Positions 5,802 to 58,890 of a stretch of DNA of 64,000 nt are shown here, in pieces. The position numbers and the translations under genes were made by a program. Below the pieces are notes generated by a model. It saw nothing but the letters and a program-made list of their open reading frames with translations, ran no database searches and was not told where the DNA came from. Where the stretch lies: NCBI GenBank assembly GCA_032622095.1, contig CP136069.1, positions 3,561,566-3,625,565 of the forward strand. The letters run 5' to 3'. This DNA comes from Siphonodentalium dalli. Taxonomy: Eukaryota > Mollusca > Scaphopoda > Gadilida > Siphonodentaliidae. The number at the start of each line of letters is the position of its first letter. Within the stretch, counting starts at the first letter, position 1.

Positions 5802-6247
5802 CCCTTTACCCAACAAAACGGCCAAAAACGCCCAAATAAAGCTTCAACAGCCTAAAATATCTTCGGTCTGTCTCACTAACACCATACAAAAATATGGATA
5901 TCATTGGAACCGGTTCATTGACCACATTGTGATGGTTACAGTTATGCCCTGTGCCAATGCATTCTCTTATATATGGTCGCCTCGCATATATAAGAGAATG
6001 CACTGGCCTAAACAAAATCTTTTTTTAACACTGTTTACCATTTTTTTCTTACATTCTTTAACAATTTTATAATTTTTTCTTACATTTTTTAACAATTTTT
6101 ATAATATTTTTCTACATTCTTTGACAATTTTATCATTTTTAATATGTGTTAAGCCAATGCATTCTCTTATATATGCGAGGCGACCTATGGTCGACTCGCA
6201 TATATAAGAGAATGCATTGGCACAGGGCCGTTCTGTTGGGTAAAGGG
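5802..6247 (+). mobile_element. piggyBac-type MITE A, copy 1
   Basis: Terminal inverted repeats CCCTTTACCCAACA and TGTTGGGTAAAGGG are flanked by TTAA on both sides (5798-5801, 6248-6251). The left hairpin module has lost part of one arm (5951-6005); the right one (6155-6222) is complete. The T-rich spacer carries an extra internal duplication. Non-coding; recurring peptides such as FSYICESTIGRL arise from the hairpin. Confidence 0.9.
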
Positions 6248-23622: not shown

Positions 23623-23892
23623 CCCAAGAGAGCATGCTAAACCAAGATTCACACCCCCAGGGGATTTGCTTGTTGTTAAATGTGACACAATAGTTGAGGT
23701 TAAGTACTAACTATCATGTAAAACTGGTTGTATATTAGTTATTGCAAATCAACTATAATCAAGATGGATATTCACATCATTTTGCAAACATCAGGGCAGC
23801 CATTATTAAATTTTTTTTTAATTTGACCCGCCATATCAAATCCAGTCGTAAGTCGGGATTTTTTTACCCTGTGCCAATGCATTCTCTTATAT

Positions 23893-25690
23893 TAGTGTAG
23901 TGACTTAGCGACAAAATTTTGTCATATTGGAACGGACTGGCCAAAAGTGCCATTTTTATATATTATGTCAAGTTAGGTGTGCTCTTTCAGAAAGTGAACT
24001 AGAAACAGGTTTATGATCAATATTAACCCTTGTTTCCAGTATAAATCCAAGATGGCGGCCAAATTCAATCATTATTTCACCATGACGTTCCAACTGGTAT
24101 ACAATTTAAGGCACATGCATAATAAAGGCATCATTCCATCCGGCATTGTCATATTTTGAAGATATTAGCAATCCAGGCTGACCAAATTTGAAAATTATCA
24201 CTTTTTGGACCAAAAGCATGAAATTTTGTCATAAAATCATTCTCGTTTCAATTATTTCGGAATAATAAACAGACAATTTCTCAAAACTGTTTCAGTGCAG
24301 ATCAAAGGTTAAGATCTTAAAACTTTCAGAAAAGTATACTGCAAACAAAATATACAACAACTAGGACAAATTCGTAACCATATTTTAGACATTTTGGATT
24401 ATGTTACCCCTCACCCCAAAAATCATGACATTTTGTTTTTGTGATAAACATCCGATAGAACATGGATGAGAATCTATAAAGGGCACTATTCGATCACGTT
24501 TCTAAATACTGTAATTGCAATTACACACACAATGACCAAAGTTGAAATTTACAACTTTTTCGACTAAAATATTCAATTTTGTAAGAAAATCCTCGTCATT
24601 TCAAATATTTTGGTCCAATAAATGGTCATTTACACATAAGATATTTGCGATAGTTCAAAATGTTTGGTCTTAAATGTTTTGGACATATATACTGAAAACA
24701 ATGAATACATTTTCTGTGGTTAATATGTAACAACGTTTCAGAAAATTTGGTTTATGTTACCCCTCACCCCAAAAATCACGAAAATGTGACTTGGTAAATG
24801 TATTTTAAGATTCAATAAATCTTTGGTTAAATCTTATAAAGTGAGTTTGTCGATGACAATTAGTCATATATTGTTATGTAACAATCTCATTGACAGTATA
24901 CTGTTTAAATATACAATTGTATGCCTAATAACAGCTATATTTTATGGTAAAATAACCATCATTTGAAATATTTTCAACCAATATATGGGCAATTTCTCAA
25001 AATTTCCCAAGATCGTATACCACGTGCGGCCTTGAAAGTTTCGAAAATGACTGTCGAATACAACACATTTAAAGGTGTATACATGTCATGTCTTGGTGAA
25101 ATAGAATAAAATTCTAATAATCTATTATACCATAAATAATTTGAAGGTTTTGACTTATATAATCTACAAATGTAGCATACAATAGGGGGTATATATAGAC
25201 ATGTAGTTCAGATCACAACTTTAATTTGTCTATCAATAATACACATAACATAAAGATGGTCTATCTTTGTTTATACTCTGTTCTTAAATTCACGTTTGTT
25301 ATGTTGTACCTGTATAACTATAATGTGCACAGTCTGATCATACCAGCAGATATATAGCTCATAGATTGTCATGTTATAATCACCGGTGACCATGTTGATA
25401 CATTGAACAAATATTTTAGGCATTCTTAATATCACAATTACAACTGCATAATTATGAGCATGGCAAATCAGCTATTGCACATTTCCATCTGTTAAAAGTT
25501 TGGGATTTGCAACAACACTTGATGAGTTCTGAACACGCAGCTGCAGCTTCTGGTAATGTAGTCCACAATATGGTTTACATCCATGATCTTCAACTGTCCA
25601 TTCCCAGTCATGCGGGCCATGTATTGGAATTGTTATGTCATGACAAGTGTACCACAATCCTGGCTCATTTCATATGCTGTATCAGCTAGG
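23893..25690 (+). repeat. Left long inverted arm with subterminal tandem units
   Basis: Inverted partner of 26985-28642. Contains about three diverged units of roughly 330 bp, each with an AATTATTTCGG/ATTTTGGTCCAATAAATGG block. The motif CCCCTCACCCCAAAAATCA occurs at about 24408 and 24750 and, inverted, at about 27767 and 28117 in the other arm. Confidence 0.8.
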
Positions 25691-26289
25691 GCCCCTTTTG
25701 AGCGACAAGTTTTGGAGAATTCTCTTCATATGCCTCGTTATCAGCAACTTTTGACAACCTTTATTATAATTAATGGTAATGAAACGTTCGAGTTCTTTGA
25801 AAATATATGAGGACGAATCTAGTTGAATAAAGGGTTGATTCGCCTATAGAAGAAATGTACATGTATCTGTGATAACGGGATAATATTTCCATGCTATCCA
25901 GAAACTTTTTCTGCCCTTTATATGGAAGAACAAAGTGGTATCAAAACCAGATATCGAATGAAAATTGGGTAGTGATAACAATTGTCATCGCCCAGAGCGG
26001 AAAATGTGCTGTTGTCATGGTACAATGTTTTAGTTTTGCCTGTTCCTAGAGAAACACATGTATCACTACCACTATTAGCATCCGTAAACTTTGAAAACAG
26101 ACCGATGACCATTACCAGGACATCTGTGTCAACAATCCGAGCACGGATGGTCGTCAGCCCACAAGAAAGCGCATGGATAATGTGCGGCACAATTCTAATA
26201 TCAGCTTCCTCCTGACAACAGTTTCTCAAGATTGACCAGGAAGAATTTGCTATTTTGAGAGTTGACGAACATTCTGTCATGTTTAACAC
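25420..26289 (-). pseudogene. Broken PIN/FEN-like nuclease with CXC cluster
   Basis: Minus strand, read through several frames. The first frame (26289-25918) has CCQEEADIRIVPHIIHAL and RIVDTDVLVMVIGLFSKF; the EEAD and DTD acidic residues fit the XPG-I/PIN metal site. A frame change near 25965 leads to GFDTTLFFHIKGRKSFWIAW, where relatives usually have GCDT, so the Cys is lost. More frame changes follow through FKELERF and LIQHMK. LPEAAAACSELIKCCCKS then starts the CXC cluster at about 25575, with a stop inside it (CAIADLPCS, stop, LCSCNC). It cannot make a full protein. Family assignment is from remembered motifs, not a search. Confidence 0.65.
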
Positions 26290-26389
26290 TTTATCATCTT
26301 GTTCTGACGCATTACTTGTCAGGAATTTCTCATTATTGCTGCCTTTTGTGCTGCCTTCAAAATACCTATCCTACACAACACACATGATA

Positions 26390-26961
26390 TTAACACTTCT
26401 TAGTTTGTAGAGTAGAAACTTCATTGGTGACTGTGTAATAATTAAAAGTACATGTAGGCACAATTATATGCACAAGAACGCCTCTATCAAATATCTTGCA
26501 CGTACTTCCAATATTTTATTTCTTGTAATAGTGTGTTCGAACAACATTTGGGCAGTTCAAAAAACCCGAAATCGCTTCTCCGCAATTCCAAACGATCAAG
26601 TGCAGGAACAGGAGAACATCAAATTGAAAGGAAATGGAGCGTTGATAGGTTTAACAGAGAGCTCATCAACAATAACGAGATGGCTACAACTCCCCGAACC
26701 AGATGTGTTTTTCTCCCATGAGAGTCGGCTATTTCCCCCGCCTTATCAACGGGAGGTAAATTCAAGGGGACACAATCTGATTTGCTGGGATGTATCCGGG
26801 AAGCAATTGGAGATATATCGGACCCACCTAAAAATGTTCAGTGCAAGATATTTGATGGAGGCGTTCTTGTAGATATGATTGTACCTGCAATATAGTATCT
26901 ACTTTTAATGATTACGCCCAGTCACTAATGAAGTTTCTACTCTACAGACTAAGAAGTGTTA
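26390..26961. repeat. Internal inverted repeat bracketing a flipped segment
   Basis: 26390-26456 (AACACTTCTTAGTTTGTAGA...) is the near reverse complement of 26880-26961. The segment between them carries the nuclease N-terminus on the plus strand while the rest of that gene is on the minus strand. Inversion by recombination between these repeats would explain this. Confidence 0.65.
26765..26890 (+). pseudogene. N-terminal piece of the nuclease, inverted
   Basis: The plus-strand frame reads CIREAIGDISDPPKNVQ then CKIFDGGVLVDMIVPA before TAG. IFDGGVLVDM matches the first conserved Asp block of the same nuclease family. Its orientation is opposite to the core at 25876-26289. Confidence 0.55.
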
Positions 26962-27019
26962 CTGTCATATATATGTGGTGTGGGACATATGAAATGAGCT
27001 GCCTACCAGGTAGGATTGT

Positions 27020-27175
27020 GGTACACTTATGTCATGCCAAGCTGCAGTTGTGTGCTCAGAACTCATTAAGTGTTGTTGCAAATCACAAACTTGTAACAGA
27101 TGCAAATGTGCAAACGCTGATTTACCATACACAGAGTTATGTAAATGTAATTGTGTGCTTAAAATATTTGTTCAA
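27020..27175 (+). pseudogene. Second CXC cluster in the right arm
   Basis: The plus-strand frame reads ACSELIKCCCKS-type sequence (here VVCSELIKCCCKSQTCNRCK, then CANADLPYTELCKCNC). The cysteine spacing matches a CXC/tesmin-like motif and is better preserved than the left-arm copy. The upstream part of the gene is absent in this arm. Confidence 0.6.
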
Positions 27176-29009
27176 CGTATAAACACAGGCAGCGGTGATT
27201 ATAACATGACAATCTATGAGTTGCTATCTATCGGCTGGTATTATCAGTCTGTGAACATTATAGTTATATAACATAACAAACATGAATTTAAGAACACAGT
27301 ATAAACAAAGATAGGCCATCTTTATGTGTATTATTGATTGACAATTTAAAGTTGTGACCTGAAATGCATATCTATATATACACCCCTCTTGAATGCTAGA
27401 TTACATAAGTCAATGATATTGGGTCAAATATATCAATTAATGGTATTATAGATTCTTTTATTTTTATTTTATTTCACCAAAACATTACATGTATATACCC
27501 TATATGTGTTGTATATATATTGGATGTTCATTTTCGAAACTTTTAAAACCGCATATTGTATATGATTGCATATTGCCATTCTATTGGTTGAACATATTTG
27601 AAATGATCAAATAAATTGTTATTATGCATACAATTGTTAATTTCAACAGTATACTGACAATGAGATTGTTACATTATAATATATGACGAATTGCGATCGA
27701 CAAACTCATTTTATAAGATTTAACCAAAGATTTATTGAATCCTTACAACAAGTCACATTTTCGTGATTTTTGGGGTGAGGGGTAACATAAACCAAGTTTT
27801 CTGAAACGTTGTTACATATTCAACACATACAATGTGTTAATCGTTTTCAGTATATATGTCCAATACATATAAGACCGAACATTGTGAACTATCGCAAATA
27901 TTCTATGAGTAAATGACCATTTATTGGACCAAAATATTTGAAATGACGAGGATTTTCTTACAAAATTGCATATGTTTTGTCGAAAAAGATGTTATATTTC
28001 AACTTTGATCATTGTGTATGTAATTGCCATTGCAGTATTTAGAAATGTGATCAAATAGTGTCCTTTATAGATTCTCATCCATGTTCTATCGGATGCTTAT
28101 CACAAAAACAATATTTCATGATTTTTGGGGTGAGGGGTAACATAATCAAAAATTTCTAAAATACGGTTAAGAATGTGACCTAGATATTGTATGTTTTGAT
28201 TAGAGTATACTTGTCCAAAAATGCTAAGACCTTAACCTTTGATCTACACTGAAACATTTTTGAGAAATTGTCTGTTTATTATTCCGAAATAATTGAAACG
28301 AGAATGATTATATGACAAAATTGCATGTTTTTGGTACAAAAAGTGATAAATTTCCAATTTGGTCAGCCTGGGTTGCTACTATCTTCAAAATATGACAATG
28401 TCAGGTTGAATGACGCCTTTATTATGCATGCGACTCAAATGTTTATACCAGTTGGAACGTCAGTGTGAAATAATGATTGAATTTGACCGCCATCTTGGAT
28501 TTATACTTTAAACAAGGGTTAATATTGATCAGAAACCTGTTTCTAGTTCACTTTCTGAAAGAGCACACATAACTTGACAAAATATAAAAAAATGGCACTT
28601 TTGGCCAGTCCGTTCCAAAAAAAACGCTAAGTCACTACACTATATATAAGAGAATGCATTGGCTTAACAATTTTTTACAATTTTAATAATTTTTTCTTGT
28701 ATTCTTTAACAATTTTATAATTTCACCCATACAGAGCCCCAGACAAACATGAGCAGACGACACTCTTCTACATGTATATGCTTCTATATATGTGTGGGGC
28801 TCCCTGCAGGGTAATGGATGTTTTTTATTTTATGTCCTAAAAATTGTAAGAAACATTTATTTAAAAAAATTGTTAGGCCAATGCATTCTCTTATATATGG
28901 GAGGCGACCTATGGTCGACTTGCATATATTAGAGAATGCATTGGCACAGGGTAAAAAAAATCCTGACTTACGACTGGATTTGATATGGCGGTTCACAAAT
29001 ATGTTTTTA

Positions 29010-29165
29010 AATGTTTTATAAAAACACTGGCATTTTCTCAATCACTCTGATTAGACAAACACTGCAAAAAATGACAACTTTAGAAGAATTAACGGTACTT
29101 TTTTGTAACAGCATCAGTTTGTCCTACCTACATCATAGCAATTCAGCAGAACCCCAACATCATAG
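29010..29165 (+). pseudogene. Inverted decayed copy of exon 23027-23155
   Basis: Plus-strand sequence from CATTTTCTCAATCACTCTGA to CAGCAGAACCCCAACATCAT parallels the minus strand of 23155-23027 (ACTTTAGAA, TTTTT-TAACAGCATCAGTTTGT, TACC-CATCATA-CAATT-AGCAG). The acceptor AG is lost. The encoded KMTTLEELTVLFC still echoes KMATLENIRYFF. It directly adjoins the 33-bp minisatellite. Confidence 0.55.
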
Positions 29166-29169
29166 CACA

Positions 29170-29738
29170 CTAGCAGAACTCTATTCAGGACCACTATATC
29201 AGGGGTGGTAACTCTATTCAGGACCACTATATCAGGGGTGGTAACTCTATTCAGGACCACTATATCAGGGGTGGTAACTCTATTCAGGACCACTATATCA
29301 GGGGTGGTAACTCTATTCAGGACCACTATATAAGGGGTGGTAACTCTATTCAGGACCACTATATCAGGGGTGGTAACTCTATTCAGGACCACTATATCAG
29401 GGGCGGTAACTCTATTCAGGACCCACTATATCAGGGGCGGTAACTCTATTCAGGACCACTATATCAGAGGCGGTAACTCTAGTCAGGACCACTATATCAG
29501 GGGTGGTAACTCTATTCAGGACCACTATATCAGGGGTGGTAACTCTATTCAGGACCACTATATCAGTGGCGGTAACTCTATTCAGGACCACTATATCAGG
29601 GGCGGTAACTCTATTCAGGACCACTATATCAGGGGCGGTAACTCTATTCAGGACCACTATATCAGGGGCGGTAACTCTATTCAGGACCACTATATCAGGG
29701 GCGGTAACTCTATTCAGGACCACTATATCAGGGGTGTT
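29170..29738. repeat. 33-bp minisatellite
   Basis: About 17 units of GGTAACTCTATTCAGG-ACCACTATATCAGGGGT. The unit is 11 codons long, so several frames stay open on both strands (LFRTTISGVVT; PDIVVLNRVTT). One unit at about 29420 has an extra C that shifts them. Not believed to be coding. Confidence 0.9.
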
Positions 29739-29879
29739 AATGTAGACATAGTTATCTTTATATCCACCAGTTCCAATCTGTAAAATTGCCAAAAACTATC
29801 GTATGTAACTACCGTATGTATAGCGGATATCTGATTATCTGGTACTTATTTATGGATGTACCAGTACACCCTGTACATG

Positions 29880-30830: not shown

Positions 30831-33705
30831 CCCTTTACCCAACAAACCGGCCAAAACCGGCCAAATAAAGCTTCAACAGCCTAAAATATCTTAGGTCTGT
30901 CTCAATAGAACTATACACATATGGATATCATTGGAACCGGCTCATTGACCACATTGTGATGGTTATAGTTATGCCCTGTGCCAATGCATTCTCTTATATA
31001 TGCGAGTCGACCATAGGTCGCCTCGCATATATAAGAGAATGCATTGGCCTAAAAAAATCTTTTTTTAACACTTTTTACCATTTTTAGCTCAACTTTACTT
31101 TGTAAAGTTTGAGCTATTGCCATGGCTTTGTCGTCCGTCGTCCGTGTGTGCGTGTGTGCGTGTATGCGTGTGTGCGTGTGTGCGTGTGTACGGGCGGCGT
31201 CAACAATAGAGGCTACAGGACGTACCTTTGATCGGATCATTATGAAATTTGTCATAGCTGTTGACATCAACATTTGTACCAGAATGATTCATTTTGGGGT
31301 CATACGGAAAAAAAACATGGCCGCCAGTGGCCATCTTAGATTTCAAAATTCAATCCATTAGCACGGGCTACAGGCCGTACTGTTCATCTGATCGTCATGA
31401 AATTTGTTATGGATGTTAATATTGACATGTAGATGGGAACGAGTAATTTTGAGGTCATTCGGCCAAAAAACATGGCCGCCAGCAGCCATCTTCGATTTTA
31501 CTCTTTGCATGACTAAATCCTTTAGCACGGGCTACAGGTCGTACCTTTAGTCAGATCGTCATAAAATTTATCATGGCTGTTGAAATTGGAATGTAGATGG
31601 GAACGAGTCATTTTGGGGTCATTCGGACAAAAAACATGGCCGCCAGTGGCCATCTTTGTTTTCAAAATTCAATCCATTAGCACGGGCCACAGGTCGCACT
31701 GTTCGTCTGATCATCATGAAATTTGTCATGGATGTTAATATTGTCATGTAGATGGGAACGAGTAATTTTGGGGTCATTCGGCCCAAAAACATGGCCGCCA
31801 GCAGCCATCTTGGATTTTACTCTTTGTATGACTAAATTCTTTAGCACGGGCTACAGGTCGTACCTTTAGTCTGATCATCATAAAATTTGTCATGGATGTT
31901 AACAATGACATGTAGATTGGAACGAGTCATTTTGGGGTCAATTGGCCAAAAAACATGGCCGCCAGCAGCCGTCTTGGATTTTACTCTTTGCATGACTAAA
32001 TCCTTTAGCACGGGCTACAGGTCCTACTTTTCGTCTGATCATCATAAAATTTGTCAAGAATGTTAATAATCACATGTAGATGGGAACGAGTCATTTTGGG
32101 GTCATTCGGCCAAAAAACATGGCCGTCAGCAGCCATCTTGGATTTTACTCTTTGTATGACTAAATCCTTTAGCACGGGCTACAGGTCGTACCTTTAGTCT
32201 GATCATTATAAAATTTGTCTTGGCTGTTGATATTGGAATGTAGATGGGAACGAGTCATTTTGGGGTCATTCGGACAAAAAACATGGCCGCCAGCGGCCAT
32301 CTTGGATTTCAAAATTTAATCCATTAGCATGGGCCACAGGTCGTACTGATTGTCTGATCATCATGAAATTTGTCATGGATGATAATATTTACATGTAGAT
32401 GGGAACGAGTAATTTTGGGGTCATTCGGCCAAAAAACATGGCCACCAGCAGCCATCTAAGATTTTACTCTTTGTATGACTAAATTCTTTATCACGGGCTG
32501 CAGGTCGTACCTTTAGTCTGATCATCATAAAATTTATCATGGATGTTAACAATGACATGTAGATGGGAACGAGTAATTTTGGGGTCAATCGGCCAAAAAA
32601 AATGGTCGCCAGCAGCCATCTTGGATTTTACTCTTTGTATGACTAAATCCTTTAGCACGGGCTACAGGTTGTATCTTTAGTCTGATCATCATAAAAATTT
32701 TCATGAATGTTAATAATGACATGTAGATGGGAACGAGTCATTTTGGGGTCATTCGGCCAAAAAAGATGGCCGCCAGCAGCCATCTTGGATTTTACTCTTT
32801 GTATGACTAAATCCTTTAGCACGGGCTACAGGTCGTACCTTTAGTCTGATCATCATAAAATTTTTCATGGCTGTTGAAATTGGAATGTAAATGGGAACGA
32901 GTCATTTTGGGGTCATTCGGACAAAAAACATGGCCGCCAGTGGCCATCTTGGATTTCAAAATTTAATCCATTAGCACGGGCCACAGGTCGTACTATTCGT
33001 CTGATCATCATGAAATTTGTCCTGGTTGTTAATGTTGAAATGTAGATGGTAACGAGTAATTTTGGGGTCATTTGGCGAAAAAACGTGGCCGCCAGCAGCC
33101 ATCTTGGATTTTACTCTTTGTATGACTAAATTCTTTAGCACGGGCTACAGGTCGTACCTTTAGTCTGATCATCATAAAATTTGTCATGGATGTTAACAAT
33201 GACATGTAGATTTGAACGAGTCATTTTGGGGTCAATCGGCCAAAAAACATGGCCGCCAGCAGCCATCTTGGATTTTACTCTTTGTATGACTAAATTCTTT
33301 AGCATGGGCTACAGGTCGTACCTTTAGTCTGATCGTCATAAAATTTGTCATTGATGTTAACGATGACATGTAGATGGGAACGACTCATTTTGGGGTCATT
33401 CGGCCGAAAACATGGCCGCCAGCAGCCATCTTGGATTTTACTTTTCTCTTCATGTCTATAAACTAGTATTAGACATTCAACTTTCCACATTCCTAATCGC
33501 TCCATTGACTGTAATATATTAAATTATTCCCTTTCCAAGTTGAGCTACAGTGTCATTGACACTTTCATTTCTTACATTCTTTAACAATTTTATAATTTTT
33601 AATGTGTTAAGCCAATGCATTCTCTTATATATGTGAGGCGACCTATGGTCGACTCGCATATATAAGAGAATGCATTGGCACAGGGCCCTTCTGTTGGGTA
33701 AAGGG
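30831..33705 (+). mobile_element. piggyBac-type MITE A, copy 8, split by element B
   Basis: TTAA-flanked (30827-30830, 33706-33709). The left half with its hairpin stops at TTTTTACCATTTTT; the right half resumes at TTTCTTACATTCTTTAAC. Element B fills the gap. The right TTAA lies only about nine bases from the donor of exon 33719-33859. Confidence 0.9.
31086..33546 (+). mobile_element. Tandem-array element B, copy 2
   Basis: Begins with the hairpin AGCTCAACTTTACTTTG/TAAAGTTTGAGCT, then GTCGTCCGTCGTCCG and a GTGTGCGT microsatellite, then about 14 units of about 170 bp containing CATGGCCGCCAGCAGCCATC, and ends AAGTTGAGCT. Possible CATTT duplication around it. Units alternate between the AGATTTCAAAATTCAATCC and GGATTTTACTCTTTG types. 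Confidence 0.85.
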
Positions 33706-36151: not shown

Positions 36152-36511
36152 CCCTTTACCCAACAGAACGGTCCTGTGCCAATGCATTCTCTTATATATA
36201 TAAGAGAATGCATTGGCTTAACACATATTAAAAATGATTAAATTGTCAAAGAATGTAGAAAAATATTATAAAAATTGTTAAAAAATGAAAGAAAAAATTA
36301 TAAAATTGTTACAGAATGTAAGAAAAAATGGTCGACTCGCATATATAAGAGAATGCATTGGCACAGGGCATAACTGTAACCATCACAATGTGGTCAATGA
36401 ACCGGTTCCAATGATATCCATATTTGTATGGTGTTATTGAGACAGACCGAAGATATTTTAGGCCGTTGAAGCTTTATTTGGCCGTTTTTGGCTGTTTTGT
36501 TGGGTAAAGGG
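36152..36511 (-). mobile_element. piggyBac-type MITE A, copy 9, rearranged
   Basis: TTAA-flanked. The first hairpin has collapsed to the perfect short palindrome AATGCATTCTCTTATATATA-TAAGAGAATGCATT, without the GCGAGTCGAC centre. The second has lost its left arm. Confidence 0.85.
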
Positions 36512-56209: not shown

Positions 56210-56685
56210 AAGTCATCACTGAGAGCGATTGTTTGATCGATTTTTCAATTATAATAACCTTGGATGGTGATGAATTTTCGGGAATCATTTCGCCACATTG
56301 CTTGAATTGGATCAAACTGGATTATTGCGCTTTCTGGATACAATATTCGGTGGTAAAACAATTATTAAATGCATGCTACATATTTAAATGGAATTGAGGG
56401 TCGCTTGTGGTATCGCATGATTGAAAGAGGAATCCTTCGTTGACACATCCATGTCAATATCGATGCCATTGCTCGGATAAACTAAATTTGTCAAATTTAC
56501 GAGTGATGGTAAATAGTACTGTTTCCCTTGTCCTCGGTATTATATGCATTAAGATAAAGCAGGCGCGTATATAGCTATGGCATATAGGGACAGTGCAAAA
56601 GGGTTATTGTGGGCAGCTGAGAGCTTTGCACACCCCTGCATGTACCTACAACCAAGGCCATCCTTTAACATTTAACCTTTAATTA
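56210..56685. other. No recognisable feature
   Basis: Unique-looking AT-rich sequence before the minisatellite. Confidence 0.4.
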
Positions 56686-56687
56686 AA

Positions 56688-58890
56688 TATACCATCAAAT
56701 GCACCCACCGGCACGTCCACGTGAACACCATGCGTGATGTGTTAAATATACAACCAAATACACCCACCGGCACGTCCACGTGAACACCATGCGTGATGTG
56801 TTAAATATACCATCAAATATACATCCACCCGGCACGTCCACGTGAACACCATGCGTGATGTGTTAAATATACGCACGGTGTTAAATATACCACCAAATAC
56901 ACCCATCGGCACGCCCACGTGAACACCATGCGTGATGTGTTAAATATACAACCAAATACACCCACCGGCACGTCCACGTGAACACCATGCGTGATGTGTT
57001 AAATATACCATCAAATATACATCCACCCGGCACGTCCACGTGAACACAATGCGTGATGTGTTAAATATACGCACGGTGTTAAATATACCACCAAATACAC
57101 CCATCGGCACGTCCACGTGAACACCATGCGTGATGTGTTAAATATACAACCAAATACACCCACCGGCACGTCCACGTGAACACCATGCGTGATGTGTTAA
57201 ATATACCATCAAATATACATCCACTCGGCACGTCCACGTGAACACCATGCGTGATGTGTTAAATATACAACCAAATATACATCCACCCGGCACGTCCACG
57301 TGAACACCATGCGTGATGTGTTAAATATACAACCAAATACACCCACCGGCACGTCCACGTGAACACAATGCGTGATGTGTTAAATATACCACCAAATACA
57401 CCCATCGGCACGTCCACGTGAACACCATGCGTGATGTGTTAAATATACCATCAAATGCACCCACCGACACGTCCACGTGAACACCATGCGTGATGTGTTG
57501 AATATACGCACGGTGTTAAATATACGCACGGTGTTAAATATACAACCAATTGCACCCACCGACACGTCCACGTGAACACCATGCGTGACGTGTTAAATAT
57601 ACAACCAAATATACATCCACCCGGCACGTCCGTGTGAACAACATGCGTGATGTGTTAAATATACAACCAAATATACATCCACCGGCACGTCCACGTGAAC
57701 ACCATGCGTGATGTGTTAAATATACGCACGGTGTTAAATATATAACCAAATACACACACCGGCACGTCAACGTGAACACCATGCGTGATGTGTTAAATAT
57801 ACGCACGGTGTTAAATATACAACCAAATACACACACCGGCACGTCAACGTGAACACCATGTGCATGTGATGTGTTAAATATACGCACGGTGTTAAATATA
57901 CAACCAAATATACATCCACCCGGCACGTCCACGTGAACAACATGCGTGATGTTAAATATACAACCAAATATACATCCACCCGGCACGTCCACGTGAACAC
58001 CATGTGTGATGTGTTAAATATACCATCAAAGGCACCCACCGGCACGTCAACGTGAACACCATGCGTGGTGTGTTAAATATACCACCAAATATACATCCAC
58101 CCGGCACGTCCACGTGAACACCATGCGTGATGTGTTAAATATACCACAAAATATACATCCACCCGGCACGTCCACGTGAACACCATGCGTGATGTGTTAA
58201 ATATACCATCAAATATACCCACCGGCACGTCAACGTGAACACCATGCGTGGTGTGTTAAATATACCACCAAATGCACCCACCGGCACGTCCACGTGAACA
58301 CCATGCGTGATGTGTTAAATATACCACCAAATATACATCCACCCGGCACGTCCACGTGAACACCATGCGTGATGTGTTAAATATACCACAAAATATACAT
58401 CCACCCGGCACGTCCACGTGAACACCATGCGTGATGTGTTAAATATACCACCAAATATACATCCACCCGGCACGTCCACGTGAACACCATGCGTGATTTG
58501 TTAAATATACCACCAAATACACCCACCGGCACGTCCACGTGAACAACATGCGTGATGTGTTAAATATACGCACGTTGCATGTGTTAAATATACGCACGTT
58601 GCATGTGTTAAATATACGCACGGTGTTAAATATACAACCAAATACACACACGCGGCACGTCCGTGTGAACAACATGCATGCGTGGTGTGTTAAATATACG
58701 CACGTTGCGTGTGTTAAATATACAAATACACCCACCGGCACGTCCGTGTGTACAACATGCGTGCATGATGTGTTAAATATATGCACGATTATGTGTTATA
58801 TACAACCAAATGCACGCACGTCCGCGTGAACACCATGCGTGATGTGTTAAATATACCACCAAATACACCACCCGACACATCCGTGCATGT
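56688..58890. repeat. About 60-bp minisatellite, roughly 36 units
   Basis: Units of CACCCACCGGCACGTCCACG, TGAACACCATGCGTGATGTG and TTAAATATACCACCAAATA. Nearly every unit contains CCACGTGAAC, an E-box palindrome. Higher-order pattern: units ending in an extra ACGCACGGTGTTAAATATA recur about every three. Frames such as VHVDVPGGCIFGCIFN are read-through. Confidence 0.92.

Follow-up and report, generated by a model that had tools for sequence, protein, structure and literature searches.

Among described transposons, those of the Academ superfamily come closest to the element considered here. AcademX elements make target-site duplications of 3-4 bp and AcademH elements duplications of 9-10 bp, a difference tied to nuclease and helicase in the available part of the description (PMC10045372). 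The available part of a second account reports a bivalve-specific amplification of Academ elements, with a curated mean length of 5,565 bp (PMC10294476). The element in question occupies positions 23893..28642 of a 64,000-nucleotide stretch of Siphonodentalium dalli DNA (GCA_032622095.1, contig CP136069.1, positions 3,561,566 to 3,625,565, forward strand), the whole of which is referred to below as the window. It very probably derives from an Academ-type (AcademX-like) transposon, as an inverted dimer that is non-autonomous and is moved in trans. As far as the available part of the AcademX description goes, it resembles that group in its 3-bp duplications and in the link between a transposase-like region and a probable nuclease, and differs from it in being a non-autonomous inverted dimer with a broken gene.

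An earlier note on this DNA had described inverted arms of about 1.7 kb, and the inverted similarity it rested on is present, at 89.5% over 1,749 aligned nt (Kimura two-parameter distance 0.113), which is far beyond chance. However, the arms are really half-elements of 2.6 and 1.8 kb, in which the 3' half of a single gene is present twice in inverted orientation. In a first alignment they ended near 25550 and 27038, but a gapped comparison extends much further inward and pairs 26501->23893 on the minus strand with 26841->28642 on the plus strand. The right half is without 692 nt of the nuclease core and, further on, without 87 nt that the left half has. IFDGG, a YAQ block and the CXC cluster are each present twice, once per half and in opposite orientations, while EEAD, VDTDV and GFDTT are confined to the left half. 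The two sides of the spacer between the halves are dissimilar (score 12, versus a mean of 11.2 and a maximum of 18 in 200 shuffles). The parts of the element are as follows.

23893..28642, no strand assigned (.): the whole non-autonomous element, 4,750 bp, delimited by its terminal inverted repeats (TIRs) and by near-identical genomic copies with their own 3-bp duplications
23893..26501, minus strand: left half, an inverted copy of the progenitor's 3' half, 2,609 nt, from block alignment with the right half
26502..26840, plus strand: unpaired central spacer, 339 nt, upstream coding sequence continuous with the right-half gene copy
26841..28642, plus strand: right half, a copy of the progenitor's 3' half, 1,802 nt, from block alignment with the left half
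24223..25002, plus strand: subterminal direct repeats with a period of 353-363 bp (starts 24223, 24576 and 24939)

A pair resembling these left subterminal repeats is also found in the right half. Foldback-type elements are similar in that most of the element pairs with itself, as the halves of 1.8 and 2.6 kb do here. Unlike them, this element has arms that are copies of the 3' half of a gene, and its subterminal repeat is weak, with the long period given above.

The gene has an intact fused homologue elsewhere in the same genome (2.23 Gb, 9 contigs). A nuclease probe led to a place within a stop-free frame of 1,029 amino acids (aa) at C5:103504624 (L051), in which a protein of 943 aa (P0002) is read in a single frame. 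P0002 has a transposase-like region, with FDQPL at residue 92 and DQAHEQEN at 302, followed by LDGA, VWDEY, EEADTR (675), VDTDV (701) and SGYDTT (762); a cysteine cluster begins near residue 908, and transposase-like region, nuclease and cluster share one frame. Four pieces of the window match this protein (E=6e-13, 3e-21, 5e-13 and 3e-6), and the remnants are placed in the element as listed here.

26537..26686, plus strand: transposase remnant (RFSAIPNDQVQEQENIKLKGNGALIGLTE...RWL), corresponding to P0002 residues 283-332 at 44% over 50 aa (BLASTP, E=6e-13; also tblastn)
26714..26895, plus strand: nuclease start, with FFSHESRLFPP (weak) and, in a different frame, PALSTGG...CKIFDGGVLVDMIVP
25760..26501, minus strand: left-half nuclease remnant, frameshifted, with CKIFDRG, DRYFEGSTK, EEADIR...VDTDV and GFDTT
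25425..25568, minus strand: CXC-like cysteine cluster, left copy, damaged, corresponding to P0002 897-943 at 44% (tblastn, E=9e-6)
27041..27163, plus strand: CXC-like cysteine cluster, right copy, corresponding to P0002 904-943 at 49% (E=5e-13)

The spacer therefore speaks against the statement in the earlier note that no DDE transposase is visible, as its remnant falls in the transposase-like part of L051. Within the spacer this remnant, which is C-terminal transposase sequence, is followed closely by nuclease-start-like sequence, and P0002 residues 333 to about 496 are absent. The right nuclease start matches P0002 505-549 at 45% (BLASTP, E=3e-6), with the FFSHE segment reaching just E=0.045. 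In the left half, 26229-25960 matches P0002 669-758 at 43% (E=3e-21) and 25993-25760 matches 748-823 at 46% (E=1e-14). The nuclease blocks reported earlier (IFDGG, EEAD, VDTDV and GFDTT) are thus all present, frameshifted and split between strands; the gene does end in a CXC-like cysteine cluster, although this lies in both halves and not once. The nuclease appears to be FEN/XPG-like by its motifs, and we take the order EEAD, DTD and GxDT, then KGKKSFW, to resemble the EAEA, DxD and GSD...GIG of FEN1/XPG. The transposase-like region would be of DDE type, judging by its motifs.

A 92-aa transposase-family sequence was used as a further probe, and all 150 scored places match it, at 52-69% identity and with many stop-free frames, the longest of 1,585 aa. 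The two transposase match lists comprise the best 150 of 1,436 and the best 150 of 864 candidates. An L051-type transposase core and nuclease occur in the same order and on the same strand at 7 or more of the places listed for the nuclease probe and in the second transposase list, with starts 1.7-1.9 kb apart, so L051 is not alone in having this layout. Because the nuclease of L051 follows the transposase-like region in frame, it looks like a domain of a larger transposase protein and not a stand-alone driver. Stop-free transposase-like frames recur with equal lengths and scores (e.g. C3:252507332, C8:100820592 and C3:26276713), with 1,286 aa at four places, 1,575 aa at four places and 1,510 aa also in the second list. 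These equal-length frames suggest recent activity.

The genome-wide search for the termini and the tally of duplications, both proposed in the earlier note, place the window element in a large family. The exact 18-mer occurs 391 times (194 forward and 197 reverse), against 0 for its reversed control, and the first 208 bp of the element gave 651 first-look candidates, of which the best 40 were scored and are all 99-100% identical. Facing TIR pairs number 31 among the first 100 of the 391 places, spanning 4,615-12,932 bp with a median of 4,870 bp. Copies were sampled from 20 of the 39 other scored ends (10 kb around each), best matches that favour young copies. Both ends are present in 18 of these 20 loci, and L021 and L022 have one end each (at up to 3 mismatches). 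Together with the window copy this makes 19 two-ended elements, of which some carry large insertions or deletions. The duplication is exactly 3 bp in 16 of the 19; L011 and L014 share flanks, which leaves 18 distinct sites, 15 of them with an exact duplication. TAT, TCG, ATA, TCA, CTA, CAT, TGA, AGT and TAA are among the duplications seen, and the target word is therefore not fixed.

The age of the head-to-head form can be read from the 13 elements without large gaps. These copies are 96.6-99.9% alike (78 pairs), whereas the arms within each are 88.8-90.3% alike; since the arms are 10-11% diverged and the copies near-identical, the form is older than its spread and was multiplied as a unit. 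Between L012 and the window copy identity is 99.9% over the full length, yet their duplications differ (TCG and TAT, respectively), which argues for recent movement. About 150 bp common to the right flanks of these two copies was considered as a duplicated site and rejected as a dispersed repeat, because in one copy the similarity borders directly on the element and in the other it begins 154 bp from it. L011 (C8) and L014 (C6) hold the same insertion in near-identical flanks, one with an extra insert of 4 kb, and are probably a duplicated genomic segment. In the consensus of 12 copies no frame exceeds 159 aa and the nuclease is split between frames; the 13 copies deviate from it by 0.9-2.2%, and the longest frame in any two-ended element is 184 aa. 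The gene had apparently ceased to function before the family expanded, and the enzyme should therefore come from elsewhere.

Long inverted arms, and 31 facing pairs of similar spacing, would also fit a degraded autonomous transposon with natural terminal repeats of about 1.7 kb and one nuclease gene between them. This is improbable, as the coding blocks IFDGG, YAQ and CXC run in opposite orientations in the two halves, the consensus was already broken, and none of 48 fetched loci (28 of them just 3.2-3.5 kb long) contains a match, at E up to 1e-3, to the transposase region upstream of the remnant (P0002 residues 1-282). The suggestion of the earlier note that the nuclease itself might drive movement, with no DDE transposase, fares worse. 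The window copy does keep an open frame of 150 aa (25918-26370, minus strand) that is nuclease sequence, but L051 joins nuclease and transposase-like region in one frame, part of that region survives in the window, and the nuclease is split in a consensus from which the copies have hardly departed, so that movement by the nuclease alone is very unlikely.

The non-autonomous dimer is bounded by perfect 18-bp termini, as first reported, and these are the sole two sites in the window at up to 3 mismatches, against a chance expectation of 0.04. The ends and the insertion site are as follows.

23893..23910, plus strand: left 18-bp TIR, TAGTGTAGTGACTTAGCG, with 391 exact genome copies and none of the reversed control
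28625..28642, minus strand: right 18-bp TIR, from window and genome 18-mer matches
23890..23892, plus strand: left target-site duplication TAT, from the sequence and the 3-bp rule of the 16 elements
28643..28645, plus strand: right target-site duplication TAT, on the same basis
23873..23892, plus strand: left target half, the stem of an abundant palindromic repeat, GCCAATGCATTCTCTTATAT
28643..28663, plus strand: right target half, TATATAAGAGAATGCATTGGC

The flanks of the window copy (TTATAT|...|TATATAAG) allow a duplication of either TAT or TATAT, because insertion took place inside the TA-rich centre of a palindromic repeat. They fit the TAT duplication described earlier, which is preferred since 16 of the 19 two-ended elements have exactly 3 bp. 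A longer flank similarity (GCCAATGCATTC...) was considered as element sequence and rejected, being the target palindrome. One module of this palindrome, at 36178-36217, has (TA)5 in place of the usual 39-nt centre and resembles the unfilled target of the element.

The element starts with TAGTG and finishes with CACTA. EnSpm/CACTA transposons make 3-bp duplications and have the termini 5'-CACTA ... TAGTG-3'. Despite sharing 3-bp duplications, short terminal repeats and these two words at its tips, the element is hardly likely to belong to that superfamily, since the tips stand in the reverse sense and its protein pieces match a different protein, the transposase-nuclease-CXC fusion.

Several results weigh against the derivation of the element from an Academ-type transposon moved in trans. 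Pfam finds on P0002 just DUF6589 (PF20231), in the transposase-like part and below the cut-off (E=0.02), with no XPG or CXC model, and a PDB search with P0002 returns nothing meaningful. Three of the 19 elements (L015, L018 and L029) have no matching duplication. L054 (C1:34516700-34517380), a 681-bp sample from the middle of the 5.17-kb TIR pair C1:34514497-34519664, has a scrambled centre with the nuclease ahead of the transposase box, so the family includes one or more further derivative forms. No autonomous element with exactly the same ends was found among the 391 sites, read in part, and the best-scored match lists. The nearest of 80 listed transposase matches (C1, C2 and the first 37 Mb of C3) lies 72 kb from any of 100 of the 391 TIR sites, and 30 end places on C3-C9 from the 208-bp search, compared with 220 listed matches, give a nearest pair 7.8 kb apart. 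That pair (end C4:33256176, match C4:33263944) lies outside a normal 4.85-kb copy; the segment C4:33256176-33264198 may be one larger element, possibly more complete, or else two neighbours. Intact copies, which the earlier note had proposed to seek, are absent from the 19 two-ended elements read, none of which holds an intact transposase gene between its ends, and the intact fused homologue stands elsewhere in the genome. The partner may lie beyond the match lists, which cover the best 150 candidates each, and its ends may differ slightly from those of the element.

DUF6589 matches the genome at 90 or more listed places. A small number of these lie in frames of 834-1,541 aa, and two, in frames of 1,380 and 1,541 aa, exceed the cut-off. 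Its likeness to the transposase-like part of L051 is weak and below the cut-off, and the longer DUF6589 frames may be another family. The window pieces reach no Pfam family cut-off (the lowest E, 0.0094 to Herpes_UL52, is in a frame without known coding) and have no convincing match in PHROGs, NCBIfam or PDB. Neither the window nuclease, nor either of two motif patterns, nor P0002 has a relative in viral contigs. One motif pattern hit two places (L001 and L002) in a prokaryote collection, rejected because their translations are unrelated.

Despite these points, Academ membership is likely, and the earlier note's choice of Academ as the nearest superfamily that can be named holds up, as the 3-bp duplication fits the 3-4 bp of AcademX in the available part of its description (PMC10045372). 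The fit to AcademX is one of described duplication length and protein layout. Exactly 3 bp are duplicated in 16 of the 19 elements. For a nuclease joined to the transposase, which in AcademX would be of XPG type, L051 provides the ordered acidic motifs in frame, with no Pfam or PDB match found, and for a DDE/D transposase, the spacer remnant matches the L051 transposase-like box, where Pfam gives DUF6589 below its cut-off. That description cites Kojima (2020) for AcademX. In open-licence literature, no paper was found that joins DUF6589 with transposons or combines flap endonuclease, CXC domain and transposon; none was found on the Academ superfamily with XPG or on bivalve tesmin with transposable elements, and none of those listed for PIN domain, tesmin and transposon was on topic by title.

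In the preferred reading, the progenitor gene would have encoded one long protein with a DDE-type transposase, a FEN/XPG-like nuclease and a CXC-like cluster. Two progenitor 3' halves would have been joined head to head, perhaps by template switching or failed repair, and the dimer would have two working ends, since the progenitor's 3' end, 18-bp repeat included, was retained in both halves. The transposase acting in trans, presumably that of an intact relative, would bind the 18-bp ends, perhaps together with the subterminal repeats, excise the element and insert it at a 3-bp staggered cut, by cut-and-paste. Trimming of flaps or second strands, or other processing of DNA ends, may fall to the fused nuclease, and the cysteine cluster may bind DNA. 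FEN/XPG-like nucleases are a class of enzymes that handle flaps and hairpins. It is conceivable, if rather unlikely, that the head-to-head form is a favoured substrate, in that a nuclease-fused transposase moves long-hairpin elements well and sometimes picks folding targets such as the palindrome centre.

The element is otherwise an ordinary case, a non-autonomous parasite of a transposon. It provides a chain from defined transposon ends to the transposase-nuclease-cysteine layout, which the earlier note called common and uncharacterised in invertebrates, and it is a two-ended gene fossil shown to have multiplied within one genome. What the nuclease does in an Academ-type system can be tested, given the intact fused open reading frames that this genome contains.

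The palindromic module that served as target is usually 69 bp long (GCCAATGCATTCTCTTATATATGCGAG...CTCGCATATATAAGAGAATGCATTGGC), often paired about 150 bp apart, and a high-copy sequence with hairpin ends. A pattern search finds 25 modules in the window, spread over 5953-62323; the centre is 39 nt in 23 of them, 25 nt at 5953 and just (TA)5 at 36178-36217. Further repeats in the window include satellite-like sequence at 31211-33440, with periods of 155/164 bp and an inverted relative at 1-701, about 30 kb off and 82-88% alike, as well as tandem arrays of about 33-bp units at 29045-29853 and of 59/62-bp units at 56630-58790.

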